24,746 nucleotides of DNA from a virus, in the IMG/VR virus record IMGVR_UViG_3300020439_000079, positions 1 through 24,746 of that record; one strand, given 5' to 3'. Below the pieces are notes generated by a model, which saw only the letters and a program-made list of their open reading frames with translations, was not told the DNA's origin and ran no database searches. Below are positions 4,777-24,746 of the stretch, one piece after another (position 1 is the stretch's first letter; each line of letters starts with the position of its first letter). A program made the position numbers and the translations under genes.

Positions 4777-7700
4777 TTATATCAATCGTCTTAGTTTAAT
4801 ACTGAAGGTGTGTGCCTGCGTTCCAGTATATGTACCTGCTATTTGTAGTTTAACATTATTGGATGTCGAACTCGATATAGTTCTTAAAAATAAAGTCTTA
4901 TCATTATCTCCTCCACCTGCTCTATGTAGATCTATTTCACTACTAAACCCGTCATCGCTAGTGGTTCCTCCGTAAAATGCCATGATGCCAGAATAATATA
5001 CTTCTGAAGAACCTCCTGAAGCTGCGTCATTAGCATGTATTTGGACTGCGTAAGTCCCTAATGGTGTATTCGAACCATCAATTCCAGTGTCTTGGAAGCT
5101 CGTAGATATTGTCACTGAAACAGATACCGTCCTTAACTGATCGACAGCACTTCCAGATGTCATGTTCAATCCACCATGCTTGACCTGCCCATTGACATCT
5201 AGCTTTACACCCTGAGAGCTTTGTGGAGACGATGTATTAACTCCTACAGATCCATTTGAAGCTACTATAAACCTATCAGTAGCAGACAAACTTTCATCTT
5301 TGAATCTTACTGTGTCTGCCCCTACCCATATATCTCCAGTGCCGTTTTCCAGTACCGCTCTTGAGTTGTTATGGTAAATATCAAAATCATTGTCGCTACC
5401 AAATCTAGCCTTAACATCATCATTAAATGTAACGTTTCCAGTGAGAGTTCCACCAGCTAGAGGGAGCTTAGTCGCTATTGAATTAGTGATGGTGGTGGAG
5501 AAATTGGCATCGTCCCCCAGAGCGGCCGCCAGTTCATTTAGAGTGTTTAGAGCGTCTGGGCTGGAATCCACCAAATTGCTAACTGCTGTGGTTACGTATT
5601 CAGTAGTTGCTATCTGTGTTGAATTTGTAGACGATGAAGCTGTGGGTGCTGTAGGAGTCCCTGTAAATGTAGGACTCGTAAACATGGTGGCCTTAGATTG
5701 ATTGGTTACATTTCCAAGACCTACCTGTGCTGCTGTTACAGAATGCGGATTAGTTGTATCGCTTGTATGGGTTGCTAAGTTTGTGCTAGAGCTGATTCCT
5801 AATTCAGTTAATGTTTTGTTTTCCCACTTTGATGTACTGCTATTGTATTGAAGAAGCTCCCCGTTTCCTAATGAGCTTAGACCAATATCACCCATTTCAG
5901 CCAGAGTGTCCTCTGTGTCTACAACCGCCTGCACAAACGCTGTTGTGGCGATTTTAGTGCTGTTATCAGAGGTTGATGGGGTTGGTGCTGTAGGGGTTCC
6001 TCCAAAAGCAGGATTGGCTAGCGTTGCTATACCTAATTCCGCGAAAGTTTTATTATGCCACTTTGACCCTGATCCATAAGCCAATAAAGAATCTGATGCT
6101 GGAACTCCAGAGATAACAACATCATTCATCTCTGATAATTCATTTTCAGCGGTTACTGCACTCTGAACAAACTGTGTTGTAGCTATTTTTGTAGAATTAT
6201 CCCCTGAAGACTGCGTTGGGGCGGTCGGATTCCCAGTCAATGCAGGACTTGCAAGAATCGTTGACTTGGATTCGTTAGTTACATTACCCAAACCAACATC
6301 ACTGGCTGTTATGTTACCTATGGCTGTGGTTACAAATGCCGTTGTCGCTAATCTAGTTGTGTTGTTACCTGCCGATGGTGTTGGGGCTACTGGTGTCCCT
6401 GTGAATGTAGAGTTGGCGAACATTGTCGCCTTTGACTCGTTAGTTACGTTTCCTAACCCAACTTGTGTCGCTGTTACTGAGTGCGGATTGCTCGTACTTG
6501 CGGTATGCGACGACAGAGACGATGTAGTTGCTATCCCAACTTCTGATAGAGTTCTATTTTCAAATCTACTATCAGAATTATCATAAACTAATATTTCACC
6601 ATCAGATATCGATGACAACTGTACATCTGTTGCGTTAGAAATTGATACAGATGAAGAGGTTATGTATGACTGTGCTTTTACAAAAGCTGTACTTGCTGCT
6701 TTTGTAGAATTATCTGAACTTGCAGGTGTAGGTATGGTTACAGTCCCTGTAAATGTAGGACTGCTAAACATAGTTGCTTTAGACTCATTGTCTACGTTGC
6801 CTAGTCCAACTTGAGATTTAGTTACAGAATGAGGGTTACTAGTCGAACTTGTATGTGAAGTTAACGAGGAGCTTGAAGCAATGCCTGCTTCAGATAATGT
6901 TCTGTTTATCCACTTGGAGGTGCTTGAGTCGTATTGTAAAACCTCATCATTTGATATTGATGTTATTTGTGTGTTACTTAAATCGCCTACACTAAAGCTT
7001 ACATTTCCTACTGCTGTTGTAACGAACTGTGTTGTTGCTAACTGAGTAGTATTAGTCCCTGATGATGCCGTTGGAGCTGTAGGTGTGCCAGTTAAAGAAG
7101 GGCTTGCAAGAGGAGCCTTCAAAGCTAGCGAATTGGTTACACTGCTAGAAAACGAGGAATCATCACCCAACGCAGCTGCCAGTTCATTTAGCGTATCTAA
7201 AGCAGCTGGAGCTGAATCCAGTACATTAGCTATAGCAGTTGTTACATATTCAGTAGTTGCTATTCTTGTGGAGTTATTGCTAGCTCCTTGAGTTGGTGCT
7301 ACAGGATTTCCAGTAAAAACTGGATCTGCAAACATGTTAGCCTTTGATTCATTTGTGACGTTACCAAGCCCCACCTGAGATGCTGTCACCCCATGAGGGT
7401 TGCTTGTGCTTGACGTATGGGAAGCAAGACTTGATGAAGTCGCTAATCCTGCTTGAGTAGCTGTTTGGTTAATCCACTTACTAGACGTAGAATCATAAGC
7501 TAGCAATGCATTGTCTGCTGGAACCCCAGTGATTGTTACGTCATTTAGCTCTACTAGCTGATTCTCTTGATTGATCGCTGAAGTTACAAACTGAGTAGTT
7601 GCTATTTTGGTGCTATTGTCTCCTGCACTCTGTGTAGGAGCCGTCGGGCTACCTGTAAGGGCAGGGCTAGTAAGCATCGTCGCTTTAGATTCGTTCGTAA

Positions 7701-10898: not shown

Positions 10899-11603
10899 TC
10901 ATCTTCCGTATATAAGTTTATCCCATCCCCTTCTTCCTGATAGCTTCCAAACTTTTTTTACTATACCTCCATCTCCAACCTCTTCAAAGCTACCAGAGAC
11001 TAACAACCAATCTCTTTTCCATCCACCATCGCCATCTGGTGTCGGAGCAGGAGGTATTCCCGTTCCTGTGTAAAATCCAGAGTCTATGTACCCAATGTTT
11101 GTTATCTCAGAGGCCAATTGAGACTTAGCTGCTTTTGCAAAAACTTTGCTTTGTTCGTAAGTGATAGTTGGATCTAGATAAGAGTCTATGCCTGCTTTCT
11201 CGTTCGCTACCCCTGATTCGAGTTGAGACGGAAAACCCTTAAATGTTCCATTGTCATTAAAAGCAGGTTCAAACTTTCCAGACCATGTTGTAAAAGTAGG
11301 ATGTGTATCTATTGGCTCATTAGCCATTGATGCCTTTATTGTCGTAGTAACTTGACCATCTGAATCTGGATCTATCCCATCAAAGTTAAGGGTTATTTGA
11401 GCCATTCCGCCTGCAAGAAAAGTTACTGTCCCATCAAGCCTTTTGAGAAAAGAATATCTAGGATGGCTTTTCATGGAAAGCGCCTTTTTTACAGCTGTAG
11501 TGTCACCACATTCTGCAACAATTGAAGCTGTGACTACTCCTGTTTCATCAAAATTTGTTGTTCTTGATGTTATGTAAAACTCTTTGTTGTTAAGAATAGC
11601 CAT
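10899..11603 (-). CDS. Distal tail protein candidate, paralogue B (234 aa)
   Basis: This protein is a clear relative of the product of the gene just before it. Shared landmarks, in the same order, are an N-terminal MAI, EPIDTHPTF, GTFKGFP, AGIDSYLD, a K-RDWLLVSGSF strand and the C-terminal KLSGRRGWDKLIYG. I know no named family with this signature. Encoded directly after the tape measure, it takes the place where siphoviruses usually encode distal tail or baseplate hub proteins, some of which share the tail-tube fold. The start overlaps the upstream stop as TAATG. No membrane segments or catalytic motifs are visible. A structural tail role is probable; the exact part is not known. Confidence 0.78.
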   Translation of the reverse strand: MAILNNKEFYITSRTTNFDETGVVTASIVAECGDTTAVKKALSMKSHPRYSFLKRLDGTVTFLAGGMAQITLNFDGIDPDSDGQVTTTIKASMANEPIDTHPTFTTWSGKFEPAFNDNGTFKGFPSQLESGVANEKAGIDSYLDPTITYEQSKVFAKAAKSQLASEITNIGYIDSGFYTGTGIPPAPTPDGDGGWKRDWLLVSGSFEEVGDGGIVKKVWKLSGRRGWDKLIYGR

Positions 11604-19234: not shown

Positions 19235-19266
19235 AAAAAAGAGGGAGAGCATTTCTGCTCCCCCTC
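19235..19266 (-). terminator. Rho-independent terminator after the major capsid gene
   Basis: On the coding strand GAGGGGGAGCA (19266-19256) pairs with TGCTCTCCCTC (19251-19241) over 11 base pairs, including one G-T pair, closing a GAAA tetraloop, and is followed directly by six T residues. It lies 25 bases after the capsid stop. This is a textbook intrinsic terminator and probably separates high capsid expression from the downstream neck and tail genes. Confidence 0.85.
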
Positions 19267-19291
19267 CGTGAATTGTTTGCTAATCCTGTGA

Positions 19292-20990: not shown

Positions 20991-22502
20991 TTAAACTGCT
21001 TCGAACCTAGCGTCAGGGTTCATTGGTATAGCCACAAGTGAAACTTCAAAGAGATCTACTTCACTAATAGCTTTACCGTCATCTTCATAATAGAACATTC
21101 CGCCTATGCTTAATGTCTGAAGATGTCCCTCGGCAACTAGCATTCTAACTGTCGCTAATTCTGGAGCATTTGAAATTTTACCCTCTAGGTATAGTCCATT
21201 TTCATCCTCCTCAACTCGCGTATAACTGCCTGCAATATTATTGACCGAGTTTTCGTGATCAATAAGCATAACTGGGTTCTTTTTGAATTCAGATATAGTC
21301 TTGCGGAATGCGCCCTTCCTCAAATAATCACCAATTCTATCACCTTTAGTTATTGTCTCATTAGTTGATCCATATCCTTTGAATACTACATTTTTATAAT
21401 CAACTATCCTGTCTCCGTCATAAATAGGTTCTGCGATTTCGCTTTCGATTGGCAACGAAGCTTTGAATCTTTTTGTATGCTCACACTCATCATCTGCAAC
21501 TATTGTGCAGCTTTTTATAAAAGACCTTCTATAAGGCTTTGGTTTGTCATCGTCCTTATCTTCTTCTTCTTCATCATCATGATGATATGGCTTCTCATCC
21601 ATGTCTGATTTGCCAAACTCAATTATGATTGAGTCTTCAGTCTCTCTGATTTCCCTGATATGCTTGATATCATGATCAGGTAAAGACTTTTCATTAGAGA
21701 CTGATTCTGTTAAAGTTTCAGCGCTATCTAGTGTAACCGTGTTGTTTAAATCTATTTCTTCAACAACAGAAGAGCAATCTACGCTCTTACTTGATTGAGG
21801 ATGACCTTTAGGTAAAAGATCAGTGTCGTGCTTTCCACTTCTAAATTTTCCGTTTCTAAGAGCATACAAGAACGAGTTTACTCTTGCGTAAGCCCATTGT
21901 TCAGCGGAAGTGACATTAGGTCTTACTGATTGTGGATTTGTCTCATAGGCTCCAATGCCTCTTTCAAATACAGCAATTAATGTTCTTAAAGTTGTTCTCT
22001 TTGTTTTATCATCTCCAACTTTTTCATTATGCTCATCAGCTTTTCTCTGAAGTCCTTTTTCAACAGCTCCAGATACTTGCTTCTCGTCATCCTTGCCTTG
22101 GCGCTCTGCCCATTTCATAGCCCTCATTCTATTGCTTTTACCTAAGTCACCGCCCCATAGTAGCCACGCAACTTGACCTCTGGTCGGCCTGTCACTGTCA
22201 CCTCTAAGGTATTCATCAGCTTTTGGTGAGTCTAAATCACTCTTATGTCTGGCAAACCAAGCGGCCATCCTTTTTGCTTTATCGTCACTGATTTCTCCGC
22301 GAGCCATTGACCTAGCCTCTCTCTTTGTCTTATCTGTAAGGCCATCACCACCAAACTGCAAAAGGTCTAACCCTCTTCTTGCATTTGTTTTTATGTATTC
22401 TGGAACGCTAGCAACCTTATTGACTGCGTGACGCTTCAATTTGAGAAACTTTTTTGACCTGTGCATGATGCATAATGAAATGCATAGCTGTTTATTTGTC
22501 AA
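20991..22502 (-). CDS. Prohead (head maturation) serine protease with long N-terminal extension (503 aa)
   Basis: The C-terminal part from about residue 375 is a phage prohead protease: VFKGYGSTNETITKGDRIGD, LRKGAFRKTISEFKKNPVML, the catalytic His in LIDHEN (residue 416), AGSYTRVEEDENGLYLEGKI, the catalytic Ser in LQTLSIGG (residue 465) and the closing DLFEVSLVAIPMNPDA. It should cleave scaffold and capsid N-termini during maturation. The N-terminal half holds two blocks I have seen in phage head proteins: RRGLDLLQFGGDGLTDKTKR with VAWLLWGGD, and GAYETNPQSVRPNVTSAEQW with FRSGKHDTDLLPKGHP. A linker of about 100 acidic residues follows. The TTG start overlaps the upstream stop; an ATG at 22466 (MHRSKKFLKL) is an equally plausible start, and between them lies ATGCAT repeated at six-base spacing (22468-22485). 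Confidence 0.9.
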   Translation of the reverse strand: MTNKQLCISLCIMHRSKKFLKLKRHAVNKVASVPEYIKTNARRGLDLLQFGGDGLTDKTKREARSMARGEISDDKAKRMAAWFARHKSDLDSPKADEYLRGDSDRPTRGQVAWLLWGGDLGKSNRMRAMKWAERQGKDDEKQVSGAVEKGLQRKADEHNEKVGDDKTKRTTLRTLIAVFERGIGAYETNPQSVRPNVTSAEQWAYARVNSFLYALRNGKFRSGKHDTDLLPKGHPQSSKSVDCSSVVEEIDLNNTVTLDSAETLTESVSNEKSLPDHDIKHIREIRETEDSIIIEFGKSDMDEKPYHHDDEEEEDKDDDKPKPYRRSFIKSCTIVADDECEHTKRFKASLPIESEIAEPIYDGDRIVDYKNVVFKGYGSTNETITKGDRIGDYLRKGAFRKTISEFKKNPVMLIDHENSVNNIAGSYTRVEEDENGLYLEGKISNAPELATVRMLVAEGHLQTLSIGGMFYYEDDGKAISEVDLFEVSLVAIPMNPDARFEAV

Positions 22503-22789
22503 TCTTCTGAATGTATTTCCAGCAAATGCTTGATAGGTGAAAAAAATTTATGAGCAGCTTCTTTGTCCCAAGATAATAACGATTGACCATTAGCAGTATT
22601 AGATTGAACGACGCTTAGTTTAGCTAATGCTACTCTTACTTTTATCTTGTCTATGTCCTTTTCGATTATTTCTTTGTGAGCCTCATCAGAGGCAAATGAT
22701 TTTCTGCATTCAAGCTCACCAAGTTCTCTCATTCCCATTGATAGGTCTACGATTGCTTCTGCTAAATTTTTCATTTCTGGTTTTCTCAT
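22499..22789 (-). CDS. Small helical protein of unknown function before the protease (96 aa)
   Basis: The protein starts MRKPEMKNLAEAIVDLSMGM and is predicted by eye to be almost entirely helical and charged (IEKDIDKIKVRVALAKLSVV). No family is recognised. Its stop overlaps the TTG of the protease gene. A second ATG five codons in (MKNLAEAIV) has a better purine stretch before it and could be the true start. Being the first gene after a terminator-like hairpin, it begins the head-maturation transcript; it may be an assembly accessory factor. Confidence 0.65.
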   Translation of the reverse strand: MRKPEMKNLAEAIVDLSMGMRELGELECRKSFASDEAHKEIIEKDIDKIKVRVALAKLSVVQSNTANGQSLLSWDKEAAHKFFSPIKHLLEIHSED

Positions 22790-22824
22790 TTATATAAAAT
22801 TAAAGGTCGCCATCTGACGACCTT
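22790..22824 (-). terminator. Probable terminator closing the amidotransferase cassette
   Basis: AAGGTCG and CGACCTT (22803-22809 and 22818-22824) pair perfectly over seven bases around an eight-base loop. On the coding strand the stem is followed by a T-rich stretch (TTAATTTTATATAA). It lies 14 bases after the stop of the 89-residue gene. The T-tract is interrupted, so efficiency is uncertain. Confidence 0.55.
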
Positions 22825-22837
22825 GTTTGGTTAGGGG

Positions 22838-23107
22838 TTACTTTTCTAATCTTTCTCTCAAGGCAAACACTGGTTTTAGTTGTTCATCAAAACCTATTTT
22901 AATAACGTTTGATGAAACTAGATCAGAGAGATTTTTAATCAAATTGACCTCTTCTAAACCTGATTGCTTGTGTAAGAAATTATATGTATTCCAAAGATTT
23001 TTCTTTTTTGAACAAGCTAAAATAATTGCTTTTTGATCTCGATCAAACTCATCACCTCTTCTAATCCATTGAAGCTTTTGGTCATAAGTATCATTAAAGT
23101 TTGTCAT
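22838..23107 (-). CDS. Small unknown protein of the amidotransferase cassette (89 aa)
   Basis: The protein begins MTNFNDTYDQKLQWIRRGDE and continues with IILACSKKKNLWNTYNFLHK and LIKNLSDLVSSNVIKIGFDE. It is charged and mostly helical with a C-terminal segment that could form a small beta hairpin, giving a faint winged-helix look. No family is recognised and no catalytic motif is visible. It is the second and last gene between a promoter and a terminator. Its ATG is one base after a perfect nine-base-pair hairpin that also contains the stop codon of the amidotransferase gene, so its translation is probably controlled by, or coupled to, that gene. Confidence 0.7.
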   Translation of the reverse strand: MTNFNDTYDQKLQWIRRGDEFDRDQKAIILACSKKKNLWNTYNFLHKQSGLEEVNLIKNLSDLVSSNVIKIGFDEQLKPVFALRERLEK

Positions 23108-23108
23108 T

Positions 23109-23129
23109 GGAGCTATAGATTATAGCTCC
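23109..23129 (-). promoter_or_regulatory. Perfect hairpin spanning the amidotransferase stop and preceding the next start
   Basis: GGAGCTATA (23109-23117) and TATAGCTCC (23121-23129) pair over nine bases with a three-base loop. On the transcript the 5' arm holds the only GGAG near the next ATG, and the loop region holds the amidotransferase stop. A ribosome finishing the first gene would open the stem, so translational coupling is likely. There is no T-run. Confidence 0.5.
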
Positions 23130-23902
23130 AAATCTTCGGTCTTCAAAATGGTGAGTTCATTTAAATCTTCGTCATCATAGAAGTCATTGACTCCGAAGTT
23201 CATTGGTGTCCTGACATCATCTTCTAGATCGTCTATATAGCTTCTTCCTTTTGATCTATTGGAAGCATGATAATCTTTGAACAAAACCTCTTGAGAGTGA
23301 GCAGCAGGCTTGACTTTCTTTTTAGAATACTTTGGCGCTAGGCTATTTTTCCATTTGCTGACCCTTGGCATATAACTGTCATTGCTGAACCAGCACCCCT
23401 CATCCCAATGACCTTTTTGCTCATTGAAAATAACAGCCTCTCCAGATCCGTCAATAACCGCCACCTTGCTTTGTCCTATAGCAAGATTGATCATCTTTTT
23501 GCCTGCCTTGGAATAAATGAAACTAGGGTTCTCTTTAATTATTGGAGCAAGAATTCTATGAGCAAAATTAGAACTATCACTTCCGTTGTTTTTGCAAAGA
23601 ACTCTATCAATAGTCCCATTGTGAACCATTGCATGCTTTTGATTTAGCTTGAATGGATGGCAATTCTCCTTGGTTTTTCCACCCTTGGTTGCCCACCTGA
23701 AGTGAATGAGCATCGCGTGTTTTTCTCCTATAGATTTATAAGCTTTGTAAAATTCACTAAAAGAGAAAAAACCTTTTTTGATGAAGACTTTACCGTTCTT
23801 TGAATAAGCGATACCAGAACCGTGAGGGTTTCTGTTGAAACCGTTTCTAAGACGGTCAGTATTAACTTTTTTGTGTTTTGGTTTATATATTGCTAGGCAC
23901 AT
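23120..23902 (-). CDS. Stand-alone class II glutamine amidotransferase (260 aa)
   Basis: This is an Ntn-hydrolase glutaminase domain that releases ammonia from glutamine. Residue 2 is Cys (MCLAIY), which becomes the N-terminal nucleophile after Met removal. NPHGSG (25-30), HFRWATKGG (67-75), NCHPF (80-84), MVHNG (92-96) and SDSSNF (108-113) match the class II motifs, with Arg69, His82, Asn95-Gly96 and Asp109 at the positions expected from enzymes such as GlmS. A later strand VAVIDGSGEAVIFNEQ completes the fold. No synthase domain is fused; the last 80 residues are low in motif content and acidic at the end. Similar free-standing domains are frequent in phages, but their ammonia acceptor is not known. 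Its own promoter upstream and the terminator after the next gene set it apart from the head genes on both sides. Confidence 0.88.
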   Translation of the reverse strand: MCLAIYKPKHKKVNTDRLRNGFNRNPHGSGIAYSKNGKVFIKKGFFSFSEFYKAYKSIGEKHAMLIHFRWATKGGKTKENCHPFKLNQKHAMVHNGTIDRVLCKNNGSDSSNFAHRILAPIIKENPSFIYSKAGKKMINLAIGQSKVAVIDGSGEAVIFNEQKGHWDEGCWFSNDSYMPRVSKWKNSLAPKYSKKKVKPAAHSQEVLFKDYHASNRSKGRSYIDDLEDDVRTPMNFGVNDFYDDEDLNELTILKTEDLEL

Positions 23903-23941
23903 ATTAGTAAGTAGTTAGTTGTTAGTATTAATAATAATTAC

Positions 23942-23969
23942 ATAATAATGCATATACTATTAATGTCAA
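23942..23969 (-). promoter_or_regulatory. Sigma70-type promoter of the amidotransferase cassette
   Basis: On the coding strand TTGACA (23969-23964), a 16-base spacer and TATTAT (23947-23942) give a near-consensus promoter. A run of nine A residues (23991-23983) lies upstream at the place of an UP element. The predicted start near 23935 leaves about 33 bases before the ATG. Base composition of this 100-base gap is very AT-rich, which raises chance matches. Confidence 0.65.
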
Positions 23970-24003
23970 TACATTAAATGTATTTTTTTTTACAAATGCC
24001 GAA

Positions 24004-24746
24004 CTAATCCCTCTGAACTATTTTCGAAGGTATCCAAAGTCCCGTGTGATTTATATGAAATTCAACAATATCAACATCCTCAGTAGGTACGTCTTTGATG
24101 TTGCATGTTGGTATGCCGTTATAGGTAGGAATCCTTGGCTCAATAGCCATACATCCAACAACACTGCAATGCGTTACTATTTCAGACTTATCAAACGCTT
24201 CTTTGATCCCTTCATCAACCGCCCTTCCTCCATCAGTTCTAGCTATTGTGGTCAACCTAGAATTAGAAGCAACTCTTTCTGTTATTGACTTAGTGACAGC
24301 TGTTACTGCGTCTGCCCAACTTGTATTAATATTTAAAAGGTTTGTTCTTAATATTTCCCTTGTGATTCTAAATTCAGCCATTGCAAAACTGGCTTGATTT
24401 ATAAGTGCAGTTGTTCTCAGTAAGTTTTCGTTTCTTGATGCTAAAGCTGGATTTCTTAGCCCATCACCTTCACCAAGCACAAACCTTGCTCTAGTGTACC
24501 CTCTATCAATTAAGCTCTGGTATTTAGATCTAGCCATTTGAACTAGAAGAGTGTCTCTTAAAAATGCGTTTCTTGCTGCTTCAACTAATATGGCTATAAC
24601 TAAAGCAATTTCTTCATCGCTCCAAGTTTCATCAGGTTGAGCCTTGTTAGCTAATCTAGTCCTAGCTCCTAGGAGTAATGCTTCATCTTTGAATTTGTTT
24701 ATTTGGTTTTGAAAAATGACCCTAAACTCCCTTGGAAGGCTTCCCA
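24004..24746 (-). CDS. Mu gpF-like minor head morphogenesis protein, N-terminus beyond window edge
   Basis: The frame is open from the right window edge to a TAG at 24004-24006, showing 246 residues of a larger protein; an internal ATG at 24537 is not the true start because the helical sequence continues in frame upstream (GSLPREFRVIFQNQINKF). The C-terminal part resembles the Mu gpF / SPP1 gp7 domain: ITERVASNSRLTTIARTDGG with RAVDEGIKEAF for the conserved [IA].RTE...A.N.G helix, a Cys pair (HCSVVGCMAIEP) in place of the usual D..C..C segment, and a final EFHINHTGLWIPSKI similar to the H.NC. or HPNHTG ending. Such proteins sit by the portal inside the head and help packaging or ejection. The portal and terminase are expected further right. 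Confidence 0.72.
   Translation of the reverse strand, partial: GSLPREFRVIFQNQINKFKDEALLLGARTRLANKAQPDETWSDEEIALVIAILVEAARNAFLRDTLLVQMARSKYQSLIDRGYTRARFVLGEGDGLRNPALASRNENLLRTTALINQASFAMAEFRITREILRTNLLNINTSWADAVTAVTKSITERVASNSRLTTIARTDGGRAVDEGIKEAFDKSEIVTHCSVVGCMAIEPRIPTYNGIPTCNIKDVPTEDVDIVEFHINHTGLWIPSKIVQRD

Follow-up and report, generated by a model that had tools for sequence, protein, structure and literature searches.

A cassette in the junction between the minor head and prohead protease genes of a tailed phage probably joins the glutaminase half of an amidoligase/GAT-II module to a small winged-helix protein. With a probability of about three in four, it was moved together with an early-type promoter and a terminator from the non-structural arm of the genome into this junction. 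The window, by which we mean the whole 24,746-base stretch of DNA analysed here, is a complete IMG/VR record and a fragment of the phage genome, and our reading derives from comparing its sequence with those of related viral contigs. If it is correct, a seemingly partner-less "moron" enzyme would be a relocated piece of a widespread phage system known from sequence proposals, and the predicted winged-helix protein and the shared early-type promoter would be new for the amidoligase/GAT module in this lineage.

Gene order and signals of the cassette

On the minus strand, the genes and signals follow the order minor head gene, A-tract, promoter, amidotransferase gene (GAT), 89-aa gene (g89), hairpin, 96-aa gene (g96), S78 protease gene and major capsid protein gene (Table 1). 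The first-pass annotation of this DNA had described an amidotransferase gene, an 89-aa gene, a promoter and a hairpin terminator as a closed unit of non-structural content between minor head and protease. The order, the signals and the non-structural content of GAT and g89 were borne out, and the unit does possess its own predicted promoter and terminator, but g96 had been overlooked between the terminator and the protease. This gene is part of the GAT-g89 block. The start of g89 lies 12 nt downstream of GAT.

Table 1. Positions of the cassette features and the flanking genes in the window
Feature	Position	Strand	Basis or remark
Minor head protein gene	24004..24744	-	5' part extends beyond the fragment; bounds the insertion upstream
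A-tract, nine A on the coding strand	23983..23991	-	just upstream of the promoter; read from the sequence
Extended -35 element TTAATGTATTGACA of the predicted lineage-specific early-type promoter	23964..23977	-	exact 14-mer
-10 element TATTAT, spacer 16	23942..23947	-	promoter scan
GAT, class II glutamine amidotransferase, 260 aa	23120..23902	-	Pfam GATase_6, alignment
Perfect 11-bp hairpin	23107..23131	-	includes the GAT stop codon and reaches the g89 start codon by one base; folding
g89, 89-aa predicted winged-helix DNA-binding protein	22838..23107	-	AlphaFold2 model, PDB fold matches
Intrinsic-terminator-like hairpin	22803..22824	-	end of the cassette; folding
g96, 96-aa gene, function not assigned	22499..22789	-	follows g89 in G006 and G007 too
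Prohead protease (S78) with extra N-terminal domain	20991..22502	-	downstream boundary; conserved TTGACAAATA upstream

The -35 hexamer TTGACA (23969-23964) and the -10 hexamer, 16 nt apart, matched the consensus at 11 of 12 positions, so that a transcription start near 23935 is sensible. Resampling of the 102-nt gap yielded a match of this quality by chance in 0.9% of cases, and the coding strand of the whole window should hold about 0.33 such matches, indicating that the consensus match on its own is weak. The predicted promoter becomes convincing through the exact 14-mer TTAAWGTATTGACA, which it shares with non-structural promoters of two sister phages, G001 (39.9 kb) and G006 (35.7 kb). This 14-mer occurs once in the window, at the cassette promoter, and three times in each sister, where every copy is oriented with transcription and none falls within the structural modules. 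Three of these six copies directly precede the G001 genes for gamma-glutamyl cyclotransferase and amidoligase and the G006 amidoligase gene. Such placement suggests that the cassette is under the same type of promoter as the non-structural genes. Comparison of the promoter regions showed that the nine-A tract is not common to G001 or G006. A palindrome beside the promoter, AATACATT-T-AATGTATT, was considered as an operator and rejected, as it is not conserved in the sisters.

The hairpin at the GAT stop codon has a 3-nt loop and a folding z of -5.5, with no equal in 10 resampled windows, and well-paired hairpins of other sequence occupy the same point in G001 and G006. Because it has no T-tract, it appears more likely to act in mRNA processing or in balancing translation than in termination. 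The closing hairpin of the cassette has 9 pairs, a loose T tail and a folding z of -3.9, and a terminator within a head operon would be polar unless read through. Directly after the major capsid gene (19240-19267) we observed a terminator-like hairpin stronger than the closing one, with 12 pairs followed by TTTTT. This indicates that terminators are normal within the late cluster here and are presumably read through. In the G001 and G006 loci, G+C-rich hairpins also lie in the amidoligase-GAT spacers (L044 15480-15560 and L093 16140-16220), so that the GAT gene of these phages is flanked by hairpins on both sides.

As a separate observation, the protease of the window has a domain at its N terminus (about residues 26-239, with a weak DUF5824 match) that is missing in G001 and that was matched, without capsid genes, in many other contigs (L011-L030).

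The two proteins and the link to amidoligases

We compared GAT with known glutaminases. It scored 30.7 bits against Pfam GATase_6 (cut-off 27), and in an alignment of 10 GAT sequences C2, H67, R69, T72, the HPF motif, N95, G96 and D109 were invariant, as was the pair M1-C2, which places the catalytic Cys right after the start Met. In the profile alignment, its motifs H-R-AT-G (H-R-ATHG) and HNG line up with those of GlmS. The class II (Ntn) domains of GlmS and PurF resemble GAT in C2, R69, N95, G96 and D109, but they are fused to a synthase domain, whereas GAT has none, and its C-terminal 80 residues, which are acidic, extend beyond the matched domain. The earlier view of this gene as a complete class II glutaminase was thus upheld, and GAT is an intact domain of this class with predicted activity.

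A search of viral contigs with the single window GAT sequence gave no matches, and 40 GAT loci were then retrieved from IMG/VR with a two-sequence alignment. An amidoligase gene lay near GAT, always on the same strand, in 39 of these 40 loci, which include near-duplicates and of which the exception is a 13.5-kb fragment. It was located upstream of GAT in 33 cases and downstream in 6, with a median gap of 212 nt and a maximum of 910 nt. The profile behind these matches was built from known amidoligases, and it gave no match in 29 control loci (290 kb), which had been chosen by their similarity to the protease or the capsid protein. This difference between GAT loci and controls indicates that GAT is most likely the glutaminase of phage amidoligase/GAT-II systems rather than a free ammonia donor. 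The first-pass annotation had regarded it as such a donor with no synthase partner. This description is true of the 24.7-kb fragment, but not of the subfamily, which is linked to amidoligases and in which the nearest relatives, the GATs of G001 and G006, adjoin one. Iyer et al. are said to have proposed phage amidoligase/GAT-II modules in 2009. Annotated amidoligases also stand close to GAT in a spring-water podovirus, phage C75C1, a Christensenellales phage, and Rhizobium and Stenotrophomonas phages. Modules of this kind have been discussed for the Methylophilales phages MEP401/402 and for LUZ24-like phages (PMC10580990, PMC3890496), and in two Methylophilales phages the amidoligase is assigned to PF12224 and the GATase to PF13522 (PMC10580990). 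The window shares with these modules the GAT subfamily, the N-terminal Cys and the early or non-structural content. It differs in having GAT by itself among the head genes, under its own predicted promoter and with a predicted winged-helix gene after it, whereas in the sisters the amidoligase is directly upstream of GAT.

We then considered where the amidoligase of this phage might be encoded. Positions 1-142 of another contig, G008 (L108; 15,690 bases), overlap window positions 24605-24746 over 142 nt with 99.3% identity, and G008 seems to continue the genome of the same phage or of one nearly identical to it. It completes the minor head gene and adds the portal and terminase genes and replication genes. 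No amidoligase matched in the window or in G008, which also contains neither GAT nor the promoter 14-mer, and G001 and G006 were positive in the same search. The window and G008, two separate records, cover about 40.3 kb together; as the far end of G008 does not meet the other end of the window, an unseen stretch of the genome remains, from which an amidoligase may act in trans, or the amidoligase may have been lost.

The second gene, g89, matched no Pfam family and nothing in the phage collection, in line with its earlier description as a gene without a recognisable family. This description holds for the sequence but not for the model, which is a winged helix. Several weak sequence matches, namely PHROG O-like initiators, Rrf2 and Hop2, point to winged helices. 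A first fold from two sequences was useless (pLDDT 43). The AlphaFold2 model built from only four sequences reached a pLDDT of 77, with three of the five models at about 43, and showed the order helix-helix-helix-strand-strand. Its fold matches (Foldseek, VIA-align) were MarR, Fur and TFE winged helices with Z of about 10, and 190 PDB chains had Z of 8 or more. These results predict that g89 is a winged-helix protein of three helices and a wing, with DNA binding and autoregulation. The same fold is found in the regulators MarR, Fur and TFE and in phage O-like domains; unlike these, g89 reaches no sequence family, has four members found and is roughly 5-20% identical to its best PDB matches.

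History of the block in sister genomes

To trace the cassette, we compared the junction among relatives. Homologs of the minor head protein were found in G007 (69% identity), G001 (52%), L009 (51%) and G006 (50%). In G001, L009 (a 4.1-kb piece) and G006, the minor head gene immediately precedes the protease gene and the junction is empty, as expected from the earlier claim that the two genes are normally adjacent. The pair is therefore not universal at this locus, whereas its universal presence here was part of what the first-pass annotation had named as refuting its reading. In G001, whose capsid protein is 61% identical to that of the window, the genes lie far from the junction, with the amidoligase at 34371-35441, GAT at 35552-36289 (62% identity) and g89 at 36422-36727 (42%). 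G006 carries amidoligase-GAT-g89-g96 in its right arm. The amidoligase upstream of the pair belongs to PF12224 in both sisters. The GATs of the window, G001 and G006 group in a single clade with an SH-aLRT support of 96, and GAT identities of 56-62% resemble those of the structural genes in the pairs compared.

Among the relatives that cover this region, G007 (7.6 kb) is the closest, and its junction reads minor head-g89-g96, without GAT. Ahead of the conserved part of its g89 lies an 82-nt gap, within which 36 nt match the 3' end of the window GAT. Only 6 of 5000 shuffles reached the score of this match, and it is the best site in the window, with one G006 site nearly equal; the match is possibly a relic of GAT. 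The simplest history, with the direction of the move inferred from a few genomes only, would be that the lineage's GAT-g89-g96 block entered the head junction in the common ancestor of the window phage and G007, and that GAT was later lost from G007. The lineage thus presents three states, a block with amidoligase, a moved block and a moved block without GAT, which bear on whether the glutaminase needs the ligase. A deletion scar was also considered, from a match between the cassette leader (ATACTAA-CAACTAAC) and the G006 amidoligase stop region that 0.05% of shuffles reached. It is not claimed, because equal or better leader matches lie elsewhere in G006.

Alternative readings and possible function

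The cassette had been called moron-like. A true moron would be a foreign cassette that was recently gained between the two head genes and has an expression of its own, for instance in a prophage. The anatomy of the cassette agrees with this, since like the morons of tailed phages it is a closed transcription unit of non-structural content, with promoter and terminator, at a junction empty in relatives. The origin does not, as the same pair occurs elsewhere in the sister phages and its GATs fall in one clade at identities resembling those of structural genes, so that the genes appear native to the lineage. No foreign base composition was found in GAT, whose GC3 of 0.379 is at the top of the structural-gene range but still within it, and a bacterial genome scan returned four weak GAT matches only and no prophage of this lineage. 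We therefore consider a true moron improbable. It is also unlikely, though deserving some weight, that the cassette is a decaying leftover, in which the amidoligase has been lost, GAT is disappearing as in G007 and only g89-g96 is still useful. The combined sequence without an amidoligase and the possible relic kept in G007 would fit such decay, but the window GAT is intact in all catalytic residues, has 62% identity to G001 GAT and retains the 11/12 promoter, and a possible gap between the two contigs could hold the amidoligase.

Other readings give the ammonia a different acceptor. G008 encodes a TET/JBP dioxygenase and a TET-associated glycosyltransferase (TAGT) at L108 6826-7650 and 5680-6390, beside ParB-like and P-loop genes, and these are likely a DNA hypermodification module. 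TAGT is also present in G001 and G006, so a link of GAT to base modification in this lineage is possible. A transfer of ammonia to DNA hypermodification instead of to an amidoligase would also agree with the missing amidoligase beside the window GAT, but TET was found in 2 and TAGT in 3 of the 40 records, all from this lineage, against the near-constant amidoligase. Thus they are not a general GAT partner, and in G001 and G006 GAT adjoins the amidoligase and not the TET/TAGT genes. We regard this reading as very doubtful. A related proposal, and a speculative one that we would not favour, is a split amidation system, in which a glutaminase freed from its amidoligase, under a promoter controlled by the co-encoded winged-helix protein, would serve another acceptor, such as the TET/TAGT pathway of base modification encoded in G008, or the virion proteins of the neighbouring genes.

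Under the preferred reading, a relocated glutaminase half of an amidoligase/GAT-II module, host RNA polymerase would read the cassette from a sigma70-type promoter of the kind also used by the non-structural genes, and the closing hairpin would halt the transcript ahead of the head genes. The hairpin at the stop codon may balance the output of GAT and g89, and g89 would bind DNA and probably regulate its own promoter or others with the same 14-mer. GAT, with its full class II active site, would hydrolyse glutamine and release ammonia, and an amidoligase such as that neighbouring its relatives would use ammonia or an amine to form an amide. This enzyme may be encoded in the unseen part of the genome and be served in trans, or it may have been lost. 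The product may modify a host or phage peptide, the cell wall or a metabolite during infection. For amidoligase/GAT systems, the part of the literature consulted offers function at the level of proposals, namely cell-wall modification against superinfection, or secondary metabolites, and a role in defence or exclusion is likewise a published proposal only (PMC10580990).

A further feature of the two sister genomes concerns the capsid gene. In both G001 (5610-5924) and G006 (10965-11171), part of the major capsid protein (around residues 151-201) recurs in a small separate gene upstream of the terminase gene.
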